Assembly: GCF_002872335.1 (NCBI RefSeq)
Contig: NZ_NJAG01000014.1
Location: 1-64,000 of the forward strand
Reading direction: 5' to 3'
DNA: 64,000 nt
DNA from: Siphonobacter sp. BAB-5405
Lineage (GTDB): Bacteria > Bacteroidota > Bacteroidia > Cytophagales > Spirosomataceae
Shown: one piece after another, positions 87-9,646 of the stretch
Layout of the letters: every line of letters starts with the position of its first letter
Position numbering within the stretch: position 1 is the stretch's first letter
Program-made: the position numbers and the translations under genes
Notes under the pieces: generated by a model
Database searches by the model: none
What the model saw: only the letters and a program-made list of their open reading frames with translations
What the model was told of the DNA's origin: nothing

Positions 87-126
87 AAACCCTGAGCAGG
101 AAGTCCTTCGCTCAGGGTTTAGTTAT
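87..126. terminator. bidirectional hairpin terminator
   Basis: AAACCCTGAGC (87-97) pairs with GCTCAGGGTTT (110-120) around a 12-base loop. A T-rich stretch follows on the plus strand and an A-rich one precedes it. It sits between the convergent partial gene and the outer-membrane protein gene. Confidence 0.8.
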
Positions 127-136
127 TTTTAATAGG

Positions 137-1036
137 TCACAGAAGTACCGTAACGTGCAGTTGTAGCCGCTGTTTAGCCCGACTGTCACCTCCGGAAAGC
201 TCTTGAACCAGCGGTTGCTGAACATTCGCACCTGCTACAAAACGACCGAAGTAAGCCTCCACACCTGCTGTAGCAAGCGTCGCGTAGCCACCCGTCTGGG
301 AGTTACGCACGCCATCTTTCAGGTCGCGACTGGAATACTCAGCCGTAATACCTGCATTGGGCATCAGCGTCAGTTTCTTTCCGGCACTGGTTACGTAAAA
401 GACCGACGTTGAGCCACTGAGCCGATTCCCAAAGCGATAGTGCTGAGCGTTAGTCGTCGTCATTCGATAACTAACGTCCGAGTTCCAGCCCCAGGAACGG
501 TACCGAAGCGTGTAAATTGCATTCAGCAGGAAATCCGTACTGCCCGTGCCCAGTTGAAAATTAGCATTGGCTCCCAAAGATCCATCATTTACGAAATTCG
601 AGCGACCTGTAGCCAGCTTCACGCCACCACCCAGAAGCAGGGTATGGTTCACGGCACGGTCTATTGTGTCCATGTTTGTATTGAAAACGTTGTAATTGGC
701 CAGTACTGTAATATCACCCAGTCCATTCAGCCGTGAAGAAGTCGCGGCGTCGGACTGGTAATTGAAATTATAGGGTACAAAGGCCAGCATCTGGATTCGC
801 TGGGTCGGATAAAAACGCCCCCAAAGCTCCGTCGTTTGAAAGGTCTCTTTTGTACGCAGGAGCTGGGAATTCAGGTGCGAATCGTAGGTACGGTAGCGAT
901 ACCGAACTCCTACAAAATTGCGGTACGACTGCGGCATGATGCCGTAATAGGCATTGCCTACGCCACAGCCGCAGATATCGCAGGCCCATGCGGGCAGCGA
1001 CAGGCTCCAGAATAGAAGCAGTAGTATTTTTTTCAT
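137..1036 (-). CDS. outer-membrane beta-barrel-like protein with CDICGCG motif
   Basis: Predicted 299-residue exported protein with a signal peptide at residues 1-18 (MKKILLLLFWSLSLPAWA). Directly after the cleavage site comes a cysteine cluster, CDICGCGVGN (residues 19-28). The remainder has alternating aromatic and polar strands (for example FVGVRYRYRTYD and LLLGGGVKLATGRS) and ends in a hydrophobic strand (LQLHVTVLL), as expected of an outer-membrane barrel. It is the last gene of the operon, 26 bases after a di-heme protein gene. The mature N-terminal cysteine cluster would face the periplasm and could bind copper or another soft metal; this is inference from composition and context. I know similar proteins only as uncharacterised Bacteroidota transporter-like or hypothetical proteins. 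Confidence 0.75.
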   Translation of the reverse strand: MKKILLLLFWSLSLPAWACDICGCGVGNAYYGIMPQSYRNFVGVRYRYRTYDSHLNSQLLRTKETFQTTELWGRFYPTQRIQMLAFVPYNFNYQSDAATSSRLNGLGDITVLANYNVFNTNMDTIDRAVNHTLLLGGGVKLATGRSNFVNDGSLGANANFQLGTGSTDFLLNAIYTLRYRSWGWNSDVSYRMTTTNAQHYRFGNRLSGSTSVFYVTSAGKKLTLMPNAGITAEYSSRDLKDGVRNSQTGGYATLATAGVEAYFGRFVAGANVQQPLVQELSGGDSRAKQRLQLHVTVLL

Positions 1037-1062
1037 GAAAAGTAAAGCGGAAAACTGGTGGA

Positions 1063-2106
1063 TCAGGGAACCGCCAGTTGCTTGTTCGTAAGAAATTCTT
1101 CGTCGGTCAGTGTTTTCAGGAAGGCAATGATTTGCTGTCGTTCCTGTTGCGTAAGAGCGATGCCTCGTTGGCCGGTACTGGCTTTCAGAATTGGGTCCAG
1201 ATTGGGCGTATCGTGTACGTTTTCGGCGTAATGATCCAGTACCGCTTCCAGGGTATAGAACCGACCATCGTGCATGTACGGGCCCGTAACCGCGACATTC
1301 CGTAAGCTGGGTACGCGGAAGGTATAGCGATCTTTCTCCTGATTCGTGATCCGAAACCGACCTTCATCGGCATCGCTGGTGAGAAAAAGTCCGTTGTTGC
1401 GATAGCTACGATCCGTAAACAATTCGCCCGTATGGCAGGAGGAGCATTTCTGACGAAAGAGTTGAAGACCAGTTTGTTCGTCGTTCGTCAGCGTAATGCC
1501 TTCTTTACGCACAAAATGATCGTAACGGGCGTTCGCGGAAACCAGTGTCAGCATAAACTGAGACAGTGATTGCAGAAACCGGGCCGTTGTAATTTCTTCC
1601 GTACCAAAAGCCTTTTTGAAGAGCAATGGATACTTTTTGGTAGCCCGCAGTTTATCAATCACATTCGTCATGGTTTCACCCATTTCTACCTCACTGATGA
1701 TTGGAGCAATCGGTACCAGATCCAGATCCGGTACACCACCATCCCAGAAAAACTCCGATTCCCAGGCCAGATTCTGTAGCGGCAGGGAATTCCGGGTTCC
1801 TTTCAGGTTGTGGATACCGTGACTGACGTCGTGCCCGTGGTGCGTAAATCCGTACGGTTGCGAATGACATTCGGCACAGGAAATGGTGTTATCCTTCGAA
1901 AGCAAGGTTTCATTGAAGAGAGCTTTTCCCAGTTCTACGCCAGAGGTCGTCAGCGGATTCCGTTCGAACGCATACAGCGGCTTCGGAAAGTTGGCGGGTA
2001 CGGTAAATGAGACTTCCGGCCCGGTCCGTTCGGGTGACGAACAGGACCAGACCAGCAGTACTACCCACACACCAGCCCAGAGCCTAGTCATTGTGAATGT
2101 GGTCAA
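1063..2106 (-). CDS. di-heme cytochrome c peroxidase / MauG-MbnH family lipoprotein (first copy)
   Basis: Periplasmic di-heme protein of the bacterial cytochrome c peroxidase/MauG superfamily. It has a lipobox around VWSC (cysteine 22), heme sites CAECH (77-81) and CSSCH (221-225), the inter-heme tryptophan region FFWDGG (119-124) and the family motif YMHDGRF (277-283). Ten residues after that motif is DHY. By eye, its tyrosine aligns with the axial methionine of classical peroxidases and with the axial tyrosine of MauG, which points to an oxidising maturation enzyme rather than an H2O2-detoxifying peroxidase. The start at 2106 overlaps the end of the MbnP-like gene by 23 bases, and an in-frame ATG at 2091 would shorten the protein by five residues. 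The overlap implies translational coupling with MbnP. Confidence 0.9.
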   Translation of the reverse strand: MTTFTMTRLWAGVWVVLLVWSCSSPERTGPEVSFTVPANFPKPLYAFERNPLTTSGVELGKALFNETLLSKDNTISCAECHSQPYGFTHHGHDVSHGIHNLKGTRNSLPLQNLAWESEFFWDGGVPDLDLVPIAPIISEVEMGETMTNVIDKLRATKKYPLLFKKAFGTEEITTARFLQSLSQFMLTLVSANARYDHFVRKEGITLTNDEQTGLQLFRQKCSSCHTGELFTDRSYRNNGLFLTSDADEGRFRITNQEKDRYTFRVPSLRNVAVTGPYMHDGRFYTLEAVLDHYAENVHDTPNLDPILKASTGQRGIALTQQERQQIIAFLKTLTDEEFLTNKQLAVP

Positions 2107-2893
2107 CCGTAAACATATTCACGTAGTTGTTGGCCAGCGGAGCCGCTGCGGAAGGATCATGTACCGATTTTGTTTCCTGAAGTTTCAGGGCCGTCGTACT
2201 GTTGAAGAACTTCTGAAGATTGACTACAAAATGAATCGTCGGACTGATGGATTTACGTACGGTAGCCGTTCCGTTCAGGGGCAAGGTTACGGTACGGATG
2301 TTATTGGGGGCTCGGTTCGTATAGCCACCATATCCGCCTACGTGGTACTGAAAGGGTCGTAACCCCGCTCCATTAGCCGGCACGACTGGGGAGGTTCCTT
2401 CAAATTTGAAGAAGATATAGCCGGAATTCCATCCCCACCACATATTGTCCTCCCCGTACGCATAAGTATCCAGTACTCCCGTCCGTCCAGCAATGGGCGA
2501 GGCACTTCTCAGGCTATCCACACCAACCATAAATGAGACTTCGCTGTAATCACCAGCCGGGACATTTTTCAGTTCGGGTTCCCAGGTGTTGGAGTCAACC
2601 TGACGAATGAGGAAGTACTGATCCGGAAATTTTACGACAGTACCATCCGTTTTTTTCAGCGAAACATTGCTGATGAAGTAATTCAGCGTGGTTACTGAAA
2701 ACTCCTCGCCGAAGTCATTTTTGTACGGCGTAGTGCCGAGTACCAGTTTTTGTGCACCTACCCGGTTATCAAACTCAAGCGTCAGATTGTTGGTATCGCC
2801 GTCGCCAGCAGGTTCGGGTTCTTCGTTTTTACAGGACGTGAAAACGGTGGTGCAAAAAGCAAATAGAAGTAAGAAAAAGGGATTGATTTTCAT
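2084..2893 (-). CDS. MbnP-like copper-binding lipoprotein
   Basis: 269-residue lipoprotein with signal peptide and lipobox FTSC (cysteine 21). It carries the hallmark of the MbnP-like family: an N-terminal sandwich with NYFISNVSL (71-79), then the conserved block DNMWWGWNSGYIFFKFEG (149-166). Late histidines in FQYHVGG, TIHFVVN and the C-terminal DHIHND are candidate copper ligands. In methanobactin gene clusters MbnP is oxidised on a tryptophan, to kynurenine, by its partner MbnH, a MauG-like di-heme enzyme, and then binds copper. Here the gene lies between two such di-heme genes, 23 bases after one and overlapping the other. No methanobactin precursor is seen, so the role is probably general periplasmic copper handling. 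Confidence 0.85.
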   Translation of the reverse strand: MKINPFFLLLFAFCTTVFTSCKNEEPEPAGDGDTNNLTLEFDNRVGAQKLVLGTTPYKNDFGEEFSVTTLNYFISNVSLKKTDGTVVKFPDQYFLIRQVDSNTWEPELKNVPAGDYSEVSFMVGVDSLRSASPIAGRTGVLDTYAYGEDNMWWGWNSGYIFFKFEGTSPVVPANGAGLRPFQYHVGGYGGYTNRAPNNIRTVTLPLNGTATVRKSISPTIHFVVNLQKFFNSTTALKLQETKSVHDPSAAAPLANNYVNMFTVDHIHND

Positions 2894-2916
2894 TGAAAAA
2901 AGTATCTTGAATTTGC

Positions 2917-4014
2917 CTACCGGACGGGGAATCCTGCCGGTTCGGCAAAGCGTTGGTCTTTTAAAAATTCAGTATCCGTCAGCGTATTCAGAAAAGCGAT
3001 GATCTTCCGTTTTTCGTCGGCGGTCATGGGTATGCCCAAGCGTCCGTTTTGCTTCAGCAGCGGATCAAGGTTGGGCGTATCCTGTACGCCTGAAGCGTAA
3101 TGATCAAGCATTTCCTGCAACTTGGTAAAGCGGCCGTCGTGCGTATAGGGCAGACTTTCGGCAATATTCCGCAGACTGGGGACCTTAAACTTAAAGCGGT
3201 CCGATTCCTGTTTGGTCACGTTATAGCGGCCTTCGTCCACCACCACTTGTAGGGTAGGTTTCCCATTGACGTATACCACTTTGGTACGCTCAAACTTCGG
3301 CAAGCCGTTATTGCGGAAGCTACCGTCCGTGAATAATTCTCCGGCGTGACAGCTTTTACAACCTTTCGATTCGAAGAGTTTCATTCCTTCCAGCTCATCC
3401 GCCGATAGGGTTTCGCCTTCCTTACGGACGTATTTGTCGTACCGTGAATTGGCTGAAACCAGCGTCAGCATAAACTGGGTGAGGGCATGAAGCGTCCGGT
3501 CTGCCGTAATGTCTTCCGTACCGTACGCGGCTTTGAACAGGGGCGGGTAGCCCTTCGTCCGCTGGAGTTTCTTCACTACGTTTTCCATCGTATCATCCAT
3601 CTCATCGGGATGAGTAATCGGTACAATGGATTGTAGATCAAGGTTTTCTACGGCACCGTCCCACATGTAATGTTTTTGCCAGGCCAGATTCTGAAGGGCC
3701 AGCGAGTTACGAAGGCCCGTCCGGTTCTCAATACCGTGACTCAAATCGTGCATGTGGTGGGTAAAAGCATAGTATTGACGGTGGCATTCGCCGCAGGCAA
3801 TGGTACTGTCCCGCGAGAGGATGCCGTCGTAAAACAACTGTTTACCCAGGGCAAAACCCGCTTCAGTCACCGGCTTTTGGGCGACGGGGTAATCGGGTTG
3901 TGGAAAGTTCTTAGGTACACTGAACAAGGGCACGGGTGCCGAGGGAGCGGGGTCTTTCGAGCACGCCAGACTGATCAGAAAAATCAGGAATGGGTATACT
4001 TTTCTCATAAGCAA
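2917..4014 (-). CDS. di-heme cytochrome c peroxidase / MauG-MbnH family lipoprotein (second copy)
   Basis: 365-residue paralogue of the protein at 1063-2106. Lipobox SLAC (cysteine 18), heme sites CGECH (74-78) and CKSCH (219-223), inter-heme tryptophan in MWDGAVENL (W118). The family motif reads YTHDGRF instead of YMHDGRF, followed by LDHY with the same MauG-like tyrosine position. It differs by a roughly 17-residue insertion around KFERTKVVYVNGKPTLQ (240-256) before the DEGRYN segment. The gene ends 23 bases before the MbnP-like gene. Two di-heme partners for one MbnP may mean different electron donors or substrates, or one acting on another protein of the operon. Assignment to the superfamily is firm; the substrate is inferred. 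Confidence 0.9.
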   Translation of the reverse strand: MLMRKVYPFLIFLISLACSKDPAPSAPVPLFSVPKNFPQPDYPVAQKPVTEAGFALGKQLFYDGILSRDSTIACGECHRQYYAFTHHMHDLSHGIENRTGLRNSLALQNLAWQKHYMWDGAVENLDLQSIVPITHPDEMDDTMENVVKKLQRTKGYPPLFKAAYGTEDITADRTLHALTQFMLTLVSANSRYDKYVRKEGETLSADELEGMKLFESKGCKSCHAGELFTDGSFRNNGLPKFERTKVVYVNGKPTLQVVVDEGRYNVTKQESDRFKFKVPSLRNIAESLPYTHDGRFTKLQEMLDHYASGVQDTPNLDPLLKQNGRLGIPMTADEKRKIIAFLNTLTDTEFLKDQRFAEPAGFPVR

Positions 4015-4093
4015 AGCCTTGCCGGCGGCACACAGCCGTACAATTCATTTATACGTCGAGAAAGGTGTAAAAGTGTCTGTTAGTACCTAAAAA

Positions 4094-4495
4094 CTAGGAA
4101 AAGATCACCTGGGGCGGGCGAAAACAGTCACTTAAGGAGTCATGCACATAGACTGGAGCCAGGAAAGGCGTGGGCTCCAGCTCACGTTCGGCCCATGAAA
4201 AAAGGCCAAACGTAAAGGTCGTCAGCAGATGTTCATGCGGCAGTTCCAGCAGCTGCGTTACCAGACGCTGACTGGCCTCGCGTTCATCGTGTTCCTGAGC
4301 GGCTTTGAGTTTTTTCGCCAGGTAACATTTTCCGTCGCAGTGCAGCTCGGGATGCAAACGATTTTCGCAAAGGTACTGAGCAATGTAATCGTGCCGAAGC
4401 TCGAAGTCAACCAGAATGACCGGGACTACGAGCGTGCGTAACATCAGAAGCGATGTCAGCACATACACGCCGAAAGTCCGCAGAGTTGCATTCAT
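4094..4495 (-). CDS. small membrane protein with CENRLHP/CDGKC cysteine motif
   Basis: 133 residues from the ATG at 4495; a start at 4534 would add 13 poorly supported residues. One hydrophobic N-terminal helix (residues 8-29, VYVLTSLLMLRTLVVPVILVD) is followed by a conserved-looking cysteine segment, LCENRLHPELHCDGKCYL (C43, C53, C57), then a charged helical stretch (KKLKAAQEHDEREASQ) and a hydrophobic segment near FTFGLFSW. Bacteroidota encode a family of such short proteins, with a CENK-like plus CxGKC pattern, often near metal or TonB genes; I know no demonstrated function. It opens the operon with the MauG-like and MbnP-like genes. The cysteines could carry a metal or undergo thiol redox exchange. 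Confidence 0.75.
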   Translation of the reverse strand: MNATLRTFGVYVLTSLLMLRTLVVPVILVDFELRHDYIAQYLCENRLHPELHCDGKCYLAKKLKAAQEHDEREASQRLVTQLLELPHEHLLTTFTFGLFSWAERELEPTPFLAPVYVHDSLSDCFRPPQVIFS

Positions 4496-4562
4496 GGGTG
4501 CAAAGCTAAAGCCGGAAAGGAAATCACGGACCATTTATTTCACAAAAATCCGGGGAGAACAA

Positions 4563-5444
4563 TTAATCCAGTCGCGAGGAAGTCAAAACATGCTGTTTGG
4601 GAAGCTTACGTAATTCCTGGATCATCAGCGGTTTGATGATGGGACGGGCCGTCCACATGATACCATGTCGCTGACGGGCGAGGTAAATGACATCAACGCT
4701 CGGAGCATTTACGAGTTGTTTCGCTGCCCAAAGTGGATTGACTGGATACAATAGTCGATCTTCCAGACCATGCACCATCGTCACGGGCATGTGAATGTTT
4801 TTCCAGAGTGGTACCATCGCGATCAGGTGCGGGTAGTGATTCTGTTTTTCATCGTCGGCCACGTGTATAAACCCCGGAATCCAGGCGGAAAATATCGGTA
4901 CGAGTTTTGAAATGGGGTAGATTTTCTCGGCTCCGGGTTTGTAAGAGCCGCACACGAGGAGCAGTCGGTCAAAGGCATCCGGATTGTCCATCGCCAGCCG
5001 GGAAGCTACCGTAGCTCCGTAGGAAGTGCCGAAAAGTAGGGTCGGGCGATGATCCCGCGTTTGCCAGAGCATTTTCGTCAGTACTGCCGATTGCCGGGAA
5101 ATGAACTTTTCTCCCCAACCGTAATCCGACTCGCCGTACCCCGGTCGGTCGGGAGCAATAAGCTGAGCCTGTTTTTGTAAATCCGGATCGTTCAGGTAAA
5201 AGCGTAAACCTTCCAGCGAACTCGGCGATCCGTGCAGCAGTACCATTTTTCTAGGCAGTGTATCGGAACCGATTTTCAGGTATCGAATGGTACGACCCAG
5301 TGTATCGTAATAAACAATTTTAACCGGAATGCCTTTGTCAATCAGATCTTTACGGATTTCCCGTCGGGAATACCGCCGGTGCTCGAAACAGCCCGAAAGT
5401 AGCGTGGTTAGTAGCAGGCCAATAAAAGTCAATCGTATAGGCAT
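4563..5444 (-). CDS. alpha/beta hydrolase lipoprotein
   Basis: 293-residue protein with a signal peptide and lipobox LLSGC (cysteine 19), so likely membrane-anchored. The alpha/beta hydrolase fold is shown by the oxyanion strand VLLHGSPSS, the DRPGYGESD turn, the nucleophile elbow GTSYGAT and a late catalytic aspartate (VHGLEDRLLYP) and histidine (RQRHGIMW). The substrate is unknown. It lies on the same strand downstream of the GH29 gene but is separated from it by a hairpin terminator, so it is probably its own transcription unit. 50 bases separate it from the metal/redox operon start. Confidence 0.85.
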   Translation of the reverse strand: MPIRLTFIGLLLTTLLSGCFEHRRYSRREIRKDLIDKGIPVKIVYYDTLGRTIRYLKIGSDTLPRKMVLLHGSPSSLEGLRFYLNDPDLQKQAQLIAPDRPGYGESDYGWGEKFISRQSAVLTKMLWQTRDHRPTLLFGTSYGATVASRLAMDNPDAFDRLLLVCGSYKPGAEKIYPISKLVPIFSAWIPGFIHVADDEKQNHYPHLIAMVPLWKNIHMPVTMVHGLEDRLLYPVNPLWAAKQLVNAPSVDVIYLARQRHGIMWTARPIIKPLMIQELRKLPKQHVLTSSRLD

Positions 5445-7029: not shown

Positions 7030-8265
7030 CTAAACGGTGGCAAAGAGCTGGTCCATCACGTAAATGTGAATGCCGACCCATTTGGCCCGCTCGCCCAATT
7101 GAGAGATTTCAATGCTGAGTTCGTTCCGGAAGTCGCTCAAACAATATTTATTGATGGCCTGTCCGATGGGATTGGTGATAAAGGCATCGGCTTTTACGAC
7201 AATACCATCCACAATCACAATTTCCGGATTGAATAGGTGTACTGCCATCGAAAGCCCTTTGCCCAATTCCGTACCTACGTCAAAAAGAATATCAATGGCG
7301 AAAGCGTCGCCTTCCAAAGCGGCTTCGATTACTTTTTCAATATCGATTTCTTCGATATGGTCGAGATAAACGGATAGTTTCGAAGCACGACCTTCTTTCA
7401 GTCCCCGCTGTACCCGTCGACCCAGTGAACGGGCAGAGGTAATGGTATCGAGGCAGCCTACTTTGCCGCAATGGCATAATTCGCCGTCGGGATCAATCTG
7501 AATGTGACCCAGCTCCCCGGCAAAACCGGCGGCTCCCTGAAAGATTTCGCCGTTCAGGATGATACCGAGACCTACGCCCCAGTCAATATTGATGGCCAGT
7601 ACGTGTTTTTTTCCGCGAGCCAGTCCAAACCGATGCTCGCCGAGTACCGTGGCTTTGGTATCGTTGATGACGTAAACAGGTAAACCAAATTGTTCAGAGA
7701 TAAGGGTACTGAGTGATTTATCTTCCTGATTGATTCGCCGATAGGTCATGTTCGTACCGTTCTGGTAATGAATCAGACCCGGCATGGAAATTCCGATCGC
7801 CACCAGATCAGCGGTTTGCATGCCTGATTCACTCAGTACTTCCTGCGTAGTTGTCAGTAATGATTTCGTAAACTCCGCACTGTCTTCCAGGCCCAGCAGA
7901 ACATCCCGGCGGAAAATCACTTCCCGTTGCATGTTCATGATCAGTACTTTCGTGTCGTGCGTACTAATATCGAGGGCGAGGATGTATTTATCCTGCGGAT
8001 TCAGGCCAAATAAAACCGGACGGCGTCCGTGATTACCAACCGCTGTACCAAAAGTGGTCACCCATTTCTCTTCGACCAGCTCTTCAACAATATTAGTAAT
8101 CGATGGAACGCTACTGTGTAAATTCTTCGCCAGTTGAGCGAGTGTACCCACTTCGGCCTGGTATAACTCAGCCAAAACGCCCCTGCGGGAGACGCTCTTT
8201 TTGTAGTCAACAACACTTTTCTTGGGTAGTACTTCTTCGTCGGCTGGAGCTGAATGCATTATCAA
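7030..8265 (-). CDS. ROK-family transcriptional regulator (NagC/XylR type)
   Basis: 411 residues: an N-terminal winged helix-turn-helix (about 25-75, with TLAQLAKNLHSSVPSITNIV) and a ROK sugar-binding domain. The ROK zinc signature is present, with GHIQIDPDG followed by CHCGKVGCLD (H254, C264, C266, C271), and the sugar-contact GELGH precedes it. The kinase-like NDTKATVLGE is also retained, although such regulators are normally not kinases. NagC-type members respond to GlcNAc derivatives. Location between a fucosidase gene and divergent glycosylasparaginase/GH20 genes suggests it controls both arms from the 8266-8602 region. Which sugar it senses is inferred. Confidence 0.85.
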   Translation of the reverse strand: MIMHSAPADEEVLPKKSVVDYKKSVSRRGVLAELYQAEVGTLAQLAKNLHSSVPSITNIVEELVEEKWVTTFGTAVGNHGRRPVLFGLNPQDKYILALDISTHDTKVLIMNMQREVIFRRDVLLGLEDSAEFTKSLLTTTQEVLSESGMQTADLVAIGISMPGLIHYQNGTNMTYRRINQEDKSLSTLISEQFGLPVYVINDTKATVLGEHRFGLARGKKHVLAINIDWGVGLGIILNGEIFQGAAGFAGELGHIQIDPDGELCHCGKVGCLDTITSARSLGRRVQRGLKEGRASKLSVYLDHIEEIDIEKVIEAALEGDAFAIDILFDVGTELGKGLSMAVHLFNPEIVIVDGIVVKADAFITNPIGQAINKYCLSDFRNELSIEISQLGERAKWVGIHIYVMDQLFATV

Positions 8266-8602
8266 GAGGGTTAGGCGTATGCAATAAAAATCAGATTATT
8301 TGGTTGGAAGGTATTATATCGATAGATGATTGTACTTTTGAAATTTTATTGTAAATAAACACCTGTTTCTTAAAAATATTAACAAATTATTTAAAAATCC
8401 AGTCTGTTTTATAAAGAAGGTACGCCAATGATTTGGCATCTTCACCATTAAATTGAGCGATTTTGGTAAAATCAGGAAAACTACCCTGTTCGCAGGCACG
8501 CTCGTATCAAAAATAAAAAACAACGTCGAAAATGAGTTACTACTTCAGTAATTCGTTGATAACGTCAGTAAGACCCTTTCATTTATTGATCACACTTCAC
8601 AC
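8266..8602. promoter_or_regulatory. divergent control region between ROK regulator and glycosylasparaginase
   Basis: 337 bases without a credible gene, markedly A+T-rich. A plus-strand TACTTTTG at 8333-8340 matches the Bacteroidota -7 pattern TAnnTTTG but lacks a well-spaced -33 TTG, so it is only a candidate. No convincing long palindrome for ROK binding was found by eye. Confidence 0.5.
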
Positions 8603-9646
8603 ATGACAACGCGTCGATCCTTCCTTCGCTGGTCCACACTGGCAGTAACCTTCGCTCCGGTACGCTCACTAATCGCTGGCCCGCAGGCTGCGGTGGCCAA
8701 ACCACTGGTCGTTTCCACCTGGGATAGCGGCCTGGCCGTAAATGCAGCCGCCTGGAAAGTACTCAAACCCGGTGGGTATGCTTTGGATGCGGTCGAGGAA
8801 GCCGCTAAATCCATTGAAAAAGAAATTAGCTGCTGCGTAGGTTTGGGTGGCTATCCCGACCGCGAAGGCCACGTATCGCTGGATGCGTGTATCATGAATG
8901 AAAAATACGATTGTGGCTCGGTAGCGGGGCTTGAACGCATTTTGCATCCCATTTCCGTAGCTCGTAAAGTAATGGAAACCACGCCTCACGTTATGCTGGT
9001 CGGCGAAGGAGCCCAGCAGTTTGCCGTGGCCAATGGCTTTAAACTGGAATCTGCCGAGCTTTCCGCTGACGCCGCCAAAGCGTACAAGGAGTGGCTTAAA
9101 AAATCTGAGTACAAACCCCTGATGAACATCGAACAGCAGCAGGGTAAAACGCCTAAGCGGGCAGCGGGCGGACCGTTTGCTCCCAATCAGTTCGAGGACG
9201 GTTCGTTTAACCACGATACCATGGGTACGATTGCTCTGGATGGCAAAGGTCGTCTGGCCGGAGCCTGCACCACCAGCGGTATGGCTTTCAAAATGCGGGG
9301 CCGTATTGGCGACTCTCCTTTAATCGGCTCTGGTTTATATGTAGACGGCGAAATTGGAGCAGCCACCTCATCGGGCCAAGGAGAAGAAGTGATTCGTTTG
9401 GGCGGAACACACCTCGTCGTTGAGTTTATGCGAAATGGAGCTACGCCGATGGAAGCCTGCAAAAAAGCCGTGGAGCGGCTGGTAAAAATCAATCCTACAA
9501 AAGCGAAAGAATTTCAGGTGGGCTTCATTGCCATCAACCTAAAGGGTGAAGTGGGAGCTTACTCCGTTAATAAAGGCTTTAGCTACTCCGTTACCCAGGG
9601 CGACGATGGTGGAAAAGTCTTCATGGCTGAGAGTTACTACAAATAA
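8603..9646 (+). CDS. N4-(beta-N-acetylglucosaminyl)-L-asparaginase (glycosylasparaginase)
   Basis: Ntn-hydrolase that cleaves the GlcNAc-asparagine bond left after N-glycan trimming. Residues 1-30 contain a twin-arginine-like signal (TRRSFLRWSTLAVTFAPV), implying folded export. The autoproteolysis site is HDTMGTIALD, with the new N-terminal nucleophile at Thr206, followed by the substrate loops KMRGRIGDSPLIGSGLYVD and GAATSSGQGEE. Before the cut site is a lysine- and proline-rich linker (GKTPKRAAGGPFAPNQFEDG), the expected end of the alpha subunit. 347 residues is normal for the family. It probably works with the GH20 gene 207 bases downstream and the divergent GH29 gene. Confidence 0.93.
   Translation: MTTRRSFLRWSTLAVTFAPVRSLIAGPQAAVAKPLVVSTWDSGLAVNAAAWKVLKPGGYALDAVEEAAKSIEKEISCCVGLGGYPDREGHVSLDACIMNEKYDCGSVAGLERILHPISVARKVMETTPHVMLVGEGAQQFAVANGFKLESAELSADAAKAYKEWLKKSEYKPLMNIEQQQGKTPKRAAGGPFAPNQFEDGSFNHDTMGTIALDGKGRLAGACTTSGMAFKMRGRIGDSPLIGSGLYVDGEIGAATSSGQGEEVIRLGGTHLVVEFMRNGATPMEACKKAVERLVKINPTKAKEFQVGFIAINLKGEVGAYSVNKGFSYSVTQGDDGGKVFMAESYYK

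Follow-up and report, generated by a model that had tools for sequence, protein, structure and literature searches.

A five-gene MbnP locus of Siphonobacter sp. BAB-5405 with two di-heme enzymes and two cysteine-bearing membrane partners, a candidate copper-handling module of Bacteroidota

Near the start of a contig of Siphonobacter sp. BAB-5405 (assembly GCF_002872335.1, contig NZ_NJAG01000014.1) lies a five-gene locus of the MbnP/MbnH kind. In this Bacteroidota version, the pair is joined by two further membrane proteins and a second class of di-heme enzyme, and a histidine tail on MbnP is associated with the cysteines of an outer-membrane protein (OMP). We propose, with roughly even confidence, that it is an outer-membrane copper-handling module built on MbnP/MbnH chemistry, including the oxidation, the division of labor between the enzymes and the metal relay described below. 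The window, meaning the whole 64-kb stretch analyzed, is the start of a 116-kb contig in a genome of 6.49 Mb. In the direction of transcription, the features of the locus are as follows.

4094–4495, minus strand: CGKC protein gene, ATG start (the listed open reading frame (ORF) begins at 4534)
2917–4014, minus strand: MbnH1, first di-heme enzyme of MauG/MbnH type, likely a lipoprotein
2084–2893, minus strand: MbnP lipoprotein gene (PF20243)
2087–2104, minus strand: C-terminal histidine tail of MbnP, DHIHND, residues 264–269, overlapping the start region of MbnH2
1063–2106, minus strand: MbnH2, second di-heme enzyme
137–1036, minus strand: OMP gene, predicted beta-barrel

The successive spacings are exactly 79, 23, −23 and 26 bases. 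An earlier note, made from the sequence alone, had given this order and spacing, the WWGWNSGY, CDGKC and CDICGCG motifs, and the cysteine-rich membrane partners at either end (CGKC first, OMP last), and all of these stand. Gene calls come from a simple ORF picker, and start codons are uncertain: the −23 overlap of MbnP and MbnH2 depends on a TTG start at 2106, and the in-frame ATG at 2091 would make it −8. The same note had seen an MbnP-like gene flanked by two genes of the MauG superfamily, and Pfam agrees, placing a PF20243 protein between two PF03150 proteins. Its statement that methanobactin genes are absent now extends, for MbnB, from the window to the genome: the MbnB/TglH/ChrH family (PF05114) has 0 matches in the whole 6.49 Mb, a search that did not cover the precursor peptide or the other methanobactin genes. 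A methanobactin operon was rejected, there being no PF05114 match genome-wide.

Each enzyme carries two CXXCH motifs, and the matches to PF03150 have E-values of 4e-50 and 2e-49. The best NCBIfam match of each is TIGR04039 (MbnH), at 237.3 and 223.1 bits, under the cut-off of 362.85, and the MbnH structure 6e1c ranks second and fifth among their PDB matches (1.6e-40 for MbnH1). Neither enzyme has lost its heme-binding, axial Tyr or distal Glu sites. MbnH1 keeps the distal Gln as Q128 (MauG Gln103; codon 3631–3633), along with axial Tyr306, W118, P132 and E138. MbnH2 keeps axial Tyr293, W121 and E141, and its distal Gln is replaced by V131 (codon 1714–1716); the matching to MauG positions rests on alignment ranges and the spacing W-10-Q-4-P-6-E, not on a residue-by-residue alignment. 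With S. aquaeclarae left out, the sites aligned with MauG Tyr294, Trp93, Pro107 and Glu113 are kept in 11 of 11 MbnH1 and 11 of 11 MbnH2, and the Gln103 position is Gln in all 11 MbnH1 and Val in all 11 MbnH2. Judged by these residues, the two enzymes are not equivalent, and just the first keeps the MauG distal Gln, a difference absent from the earlier note.

In canonical bacterial cytochrome c peroxidases (bCCPs), Met is the axial ligand of the second heme; both enzymes here have Tyr. Plain peroxide detoxification of the bCCP kind was rejected as the main role because both enzymes carry that Tyr and sit with MbnP. The distal triad Gln-Pro-Glu, described as conserved across bCCPs, MauG and BthA in PMC6405878, has its Gln in MbnH1 only; according to PMC10094543, Gln and Glu variants of a bCCP were inactive. 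Placing the two enzymes on different sides of a membrane was also tried from the residues after the lipobox and rejected, as there was no clear difference; in some rows, L041 and L042 among them, the simple lipobox finder picked the wrong Cys.

The second enzyme belongs to an old orthologous group. A tree of 65 enzymes groups all 12 of its MbnH1 sequences into a single pure clade (support 100/99) and 11 of its 12 MbnH2 into a second (89/86), with the MbnH2 of S. aquaeclarae placed elsewhere on a long branch. Since the clades are separate, the duplication is old, and the tree rejects a recent tandem duplication of MbnH. The polarity of the pair holds more widely: where MbnP has an enzyme on both sides (20 cases, of which one, L061, has an upstream enzyme belonging to a neighboring pair), Gln is present in 18 of 20 upstream and 2 of 20 downstream enzymes. 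Seven of the 20 lie outside the family; four of these (L100, L109, L148 and L180) pair an upstream Gln with a hydrophobic downstream residue, two (L101 and L145) have Gln in both enzymes, and one (L159) has it in neither. At one-enzyme loci, Gln occurs in 24 of 88 enzymes encoded downstream and in 9 of 11 encoded upstream. Two-enzyme loci require 2 changes on the MbnP tree, with three one-enzyme loci nested inside, which implies either loss of MbnH1 in those three or two separate gains. In a quick tree with some long branches, L100 and L101 have both of their enzymes outside the two window clades, and the two-enzyme arrangement therefore probably arose more than once. The old group of second enzymes and this recurrence in other families with other enzymes look new.

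Two genomes of the genus depart from the pattern. The S. aquaeclarae locus (L040/L091) is reduced to MbnH1-MbnP-MbnH2, and its MbnH2 has Leu for the inter-heme Trp. In SORGH_AS_0500 (L043, L044, L078, L094), the locus is present twice on one contig, in opposite orientations, and MbnH2 reads in two overlapping frames in both copies; their 100% identity over 14,492 bases points to an assembly artefact. L043 and L044, treated as duplicates, entered neither the trees nor the counts.

MbnP matches PF20243 at 182.7 bits (cut-off 27; E 8.8e-54) and the MbnP_like_WxW equivalog TIGR04052 at 36.3 bits, under its cut-off of 140. Its WxW motif is W153-G-W155, with the W153 codon at 2435–2437. The lipobox Cys, C21, is followed by KNEEP, a sequence resembling a Bacteroidota surface-export signal; the only other Cys is C14 in the signal, and the four-Cys motif named in the title of structure 7l6g is absent from this protein. 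A comparison of 50 MbnPs, from which S. aquaeclarae and 4 deep copies were left out, shows no variation at W153, W155, M151 or H184, either across the 11 from two-enzyme loci or across the other 39. The AlphaFold model has a mean predicted local distance difference test score (pLDDT) of 75.4, and below E 0.001 it matches nothing in the PDB except six chains of Methylosinus MbnP 7l6g (best 7.5e-8). The chemistry of MbnH and MbnP has been worked out in methanotrophs, where MbnP carries kynurenine at the first Trp of WxW and binds Cu(I); the kynurenine was reportedly described in a 2021 PNAS paper, and MbnH in a 2019 paper in J Biol Chem. Conversion of W153 to kynurenine and copper binding by the MbnP of the window are likely, because W153, W155, M151 and H184 are conserved, the enzymes keep the axial Tyr, and related loci have SCO1 and YHS neighbors.

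The two partners belong to no family named in Pfam or NCBIfam. The CGKC protein is small, has a hydrophobic stretch at its N-terminus (judged by eye) and is probably membrane-anchored; its three Cys, in the pattern C-x9-C-x-G-x-C with CDGKC at 4325–4339, are present in every one of the 43 members, which were collected by BLAST similarity. The window protein has no Pfam or NCBIfam match at E up to 1, and 18 members gave scattered single weak matches only. A paralogue in the same genome (G000 C163:30763-31140; L096 6746-7153) adjoins TonB receptor and PepSY_TM genes, which suggests that CGKC proteins serve more than one metal-uptake locus. The OMP, whose expected mature N-terminus is CDICGCG (962–982), likewise has no Pfam or NCBIfam match at E up to 1, and 0 of 16 members match Pfam at E up to 0.1 (NCBIfam was run for the window OMP only). 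Profiles of the two families gave no PDB sequence match of value. The OMP model (pLDDT 79.8, 14 strand elements) is matched best in Foldseek by FapF, 5o67 (E 9.5e-11), and next by the COG4313 channel 4rl8 (6.1e-9), with template modelling (TM) scores of 0.6–0.7, and the protein is predicted to be a beta-barrel of FapF/COG4313 type. Elsewhere in the genome, a 64-residue OMP fragment stands at a contig start (G000 C143:5-193), perhaps a second copy cut by assembly.

The neighborhood comparison that the earlier note had called for, naming loss of the gene order among relatives as one of the results that would count against it, finds the order conserved. Among the genomes sampled, MbnP was found in 146 of 200 at family level, 107 of 148 at order level and 78 of 296 at phylum level. 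Neighborhoods were read for 40 loci in the family, 18 named loci (most duplicating those) and 88 further loci; the first 40 were drawn from listed matches, mostly one per genus, and the MbnP-bearing genera g3, g15, g19, g21 and g33 were left out. The full order CGKC-MbnH1-MbnP-MbnH2-OMP is present in 5 of 6 genomes of the genus (counting SORGH_AS_0500 with its split MbnH2), in 7 of the 24 family genera read, own genus included (among them Pseudarcicella, Rhabdobacter, Arundinibacter and Persicitalea), and in one Cytophagales metagenome-assembled genome (L082). Because it recurs in this way, the five-gene set is not a chance one. A one-enzyme version, CGKC-MbnP-MbnH-OMP, is found in many others, including Runella, Dyadobacter and Hymenobacter. 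In the order sample, at least 32 of 39 strong OMP matches have MbnP and CGKC upstream on the same strand, the rest having MbnP only (1), CGKC only (at most 2) or neither (at most 4); among 22 weaker matches, at least 8 have both, at most 5 CGKC only and at most 9 neither, MbnP absences being upper bounds judged among the 150 MbnP matches listed. Outside the family, L100 has the exact five-gene order, L101 follows it as far as its contig reaches, its CGKC relative having no CxGxC, and L145 reads MbnH-CGKC-MbnP-MbnH-OMP; no CGKC or OMP was detected at L109, L148, L159 and L180. We conclude that CGKC-MbnP-MbnH-OMP is a recurrent Bacteroidota module, which looks new. Viral contigs yielded no relative.

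Some loci rearrange the same components. L097 (G320) and L098 (G333) have CGKC-OMP pairs with no MbnP in the stretch read or among the matches listed, and their OMPs read CDMCGG in place of CxxCGC and CPYCGCG, respectively. L072 (G110, 8.1–18.3 kb) is a run of three CGKC and four MbnP genes with differing MbnP and MbnH classes. L102 has a divergent, low-scoring MbnP without WxW (7896–8681) between CGKC and a normal MbnP, and beside it a small protein with CGIPGCHYG (7487–7903).

At the sequence level, the DHxHND tail of MbnP goes with the CxxCGC motif of the OMP, an association that looks new and that the earlier note does not mention. Among 147 MbnPs, 58 of 67 with an OMP downstream have the tail and 7 of 80 without do (Fisher 3e-23, uncorrected for relatedness). 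The tail tracks the third Cys of the motif and not the barrel alone: it is present on 58 of 58 MbnPs upstream of CxxCGC OMPs and on 1 of 6 upstream of degenerate-motif OMPs (Fisher 8e-7, likewise uncorrected, with those 6 the only degenerate OMPs). In S. aquaeclarae, where the stretch read shows no CGKC or OMP next to MbnP, that MbnP is tail-less. When a CxxCGC ORF on either side is counted, 56 MbnPs are tailed and 11 tail-less; for 9 of these 11 the OMP is listed upstream, 7 of the 9 being second MbnPs of a locus. Seven tailed MbnPs have no Cys-type OMP in reach. These main counts define the tail as H.H or two His in the last 22 residues. A stricter pattern served the tree and pair tests, and after 12 rows were dropped (those at contig ends, and second MbnPs beside an OMP that goes with a different MbnP) it leaves 6 MbnPs with an OMP and no tail, one of which (L110) actually has GHVHND and was missed, and 5 with a tail and no OMP downstream, including L167, where the OMP lies upstream. 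The OMP profile was built from CxxCGC members and may miss divergent OMPs, and it therefore favors the rule linking tail and motif.

Copper is suggested indirectly, by neighboring genes at related loci. SCO1-like ORFs occur in 17 of 127 MbnP loci (19 ORFs in 1.63 Mb, 11.6 per Mb); in 29 relatives' genomes, 48 strong PF02630 matches (65 with weak ones) in ~144 Mb give ~0.33 per Mb, the two rates having been obtained by differing methods, with sizes summed by hand and some loci sharing a genome. YHS proteins are found in 6 of 127 loci, twice directly after five-gene operons (L045 and L048).

Two further features flank the module.

87–120, minus strand: probable intrinsic terminator, a long GC-rich hairpin then a T run (−22.3 kcal/mol, z −6.7)
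4563–5444, minus strand: alpha/beta hydrolase gene, directly upstream of the module

None of 200 shuffles was as stable as the hairpin, and the operon therefore likely ends there; a separate terminator scan was limited to loops of 3–8 and does not list it. The hydrolase is in the same run in the loci of 6 of 6 Siphonobacter-genus genomes read and is not labelled beside the module in the other genera read. A promoter scan gave 1 sigma-70-like site against 5.0 expected; it is uninformative because Bacteroidota promoters are of another type.

From the gene set with its order and conservation, the residues kept and the predicted folds, we infer the following course of events. The two di-heme enzymes would oxidize W153 of lipoprotein MbnP, probably to kynurenine, and the oxidized W153 together with H184 would complete a Cu(I) site. 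The Gln-type MbnH1 would carry out a peroxide-driven first oxidation, and the Gln-less MbnH2 a later or different one. Cu(I) could then be exchanged between the His tail of MbnP and the Cys cluster (CDICGC) of the OMP at the periplasmic mouth of the barrel, and CGKC, anchored in the inner membrane, may take the metal on towards cuproenzymes such as cytochrome oxidase; that the metal flows inward is a guess. The most specific version is rather unlikely in our view: a two-enzyme relay on the WxW Trp, the Gln-type enzyme first, using peroxide, and the triad-breaking, Gln-less one taking a different step, with the finished Cu(I) protein docking through DHxHND onto a three-Cys ring at the periplasmic mouth of a FapF-like barrel, making a metal gate in an outer-membrane channel outside the TonB-receptor paradigm.

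A number of results weigh against the copper-handling proposal. One-enzyme loci are far commoner (99 against 20), and 66 of their 99 enzymes are without Gln, so the Gln type is not required; 12 of the 20 two-enzyme loci represent the window's single lineage. Two-enzyme loci have no Trp, Tyr or His of their own in MbnP, OMP or CGKC, and therefore no second target can be seen. The fit of the MbnP model to 7l6g is loose (TM 0.44–0.51, root-mean-square deviation 7–8), and the model is weak around W153, with pLDDT under 50 at 150–154; the OMP model is under 50 at 11–37, which includes the Cys stretch, and is unreliable there. The coupling of tail and OMP is partly shared ancestry: the tail label makes 18 changes on a tree of 146 of the 147 MbnPs (one low-scoring dropped), and well-supported branches hold only 7–9 independent pairs, of which ~5 agree, ~0.1 disagree and the rest are equal (median p 0.06; refined test on 134 MbnPs, 12 more dropped). 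Neither SCO1 nor a YHS gene was found in the window's own neighborhood (L038), and the TonB receptors (17 of 127 loci) and PepSY_TM proteins (11 of 127), raw counts with no background rate, would fit iron equally well.

Some of these results feed other explanations. The enzymes might be redundant or act on different proteins, one modifying MbnP and the other modifying another envelope protein or removing peroxide, with no joint chemistry. A second Trp target in MbnP, OMP or CGKC that would explain MbnH1 was looked for and not found, W104 of MbnP being Trp in just 8 of 11 two-enzyme loci and also in 1 of 39 others. In two genomes of the genus (S. aquaeclarae with its Leu, SORGH_AS_0500 with its two frames), MbnH2 seems to be under weaker constraint, and the MbnPs of two-enzyme loci are not one clade. 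Such independence is nevertheless somewhat unlikely: MbnH1 is a pure clade of 12 at the same operon position, and the arrangement of Gln upstream and non-Gln downstream recurs in 4 of 7 two-enzyme loci outside the family.

The OMP might instead export MbnP or its copper form to the surface, DHxHND being a docking or export tag and not part of a metal relay. The polypeptide transporter FapF is the best match of the OMP model, CKNEEP at the start of mature MbnP is similar to the K-(D/E)2 signal for lipoprotein export (PMC5080379), and MopE and CorA, methanotroph kynurenine copper proteins, are at the cell surface according to PMC3912023 and PMC3621798. We hold export to be unlikely, since the tail tracks the third Cys and not merely the barrel (in the 6 degenerate OMPs), and the COG4313 channel also matches. 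Finally, the module might handle iron, haem or redox stress, as the TonB receptor and PepSY_TM genes could suggest; both also adjoin the CGKC paralogue of this genome, and at L067 they stand between CGKC and MbnP. The SCO1 and YHS neighbors, and the copper bound by the characterized MbnP, make this quite improbable.

If copper handling by the module is correct, it would be a general route for outer-membrane copper handling in Bacteroidota, where MbnP is widespread and two families without a Pfam or NCBIfam name travel with it. It would further provide a natural experiment in which one substrate is flanked by di-heme peroxidases with and without the distal Gln. A literature search found no paper on a two-enzyme MbnP operon or on the CGKC and OMP partners; it did not cover most subscription journals. 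MbnP/MbnH without methanobactin is already known and not new: the pair, defined by TIGR04039 and TIGR04052, is conserved far beyond methanobactin producers, and MopE/SACCP and CorA/CorB are a somewhat similar pair, as PMC3621798 describes.

Among known systems, MauG and BthA share the axial Tyr of the six-coordinate heme and the distal Pro and Glu with the window enzymes, and MauG alone also shares the inter-heme Trp; unlike bCCPs, MauG and BthA, with their Gln-Pro-Glu (PMC6405878), MbnH2 breaks the Gln. The FapF/COG4313 channels share the predicted beta-barrel, by Foldseek, and differ in identity (~12–16%) and in the N-terminal Cys cluster of the OMP. MopE/SACCP and CorA/CorB likewise have a di-heme enzyme gene beside a copper protein whose Trp becomes kynurenine, with no CGKC/OMP set described in the available parts of PMC3912023 and PMC3621798, a comparison by description only and not by sequence. 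By contrast with the known MbnH/MbnP pair, the genome has no MbnB gene, both proteins score under the TIGR cut-offs, MbnP lacks the four-Cys set, and the locus has two enzymes, CGKC and CxxCGC OMP partners, and an MbnH2 without the distal Gln. With the MbnH/MbnP pair itself (TIGR04039/TIGR04052, GenProp0940; Methylosinus trichosporium 6e1c and 7l6g), the locus shares PF03150 and PF20243 in adjacent genes, the WxW motif, the axial Tyr and the modelled fold of MbnP.

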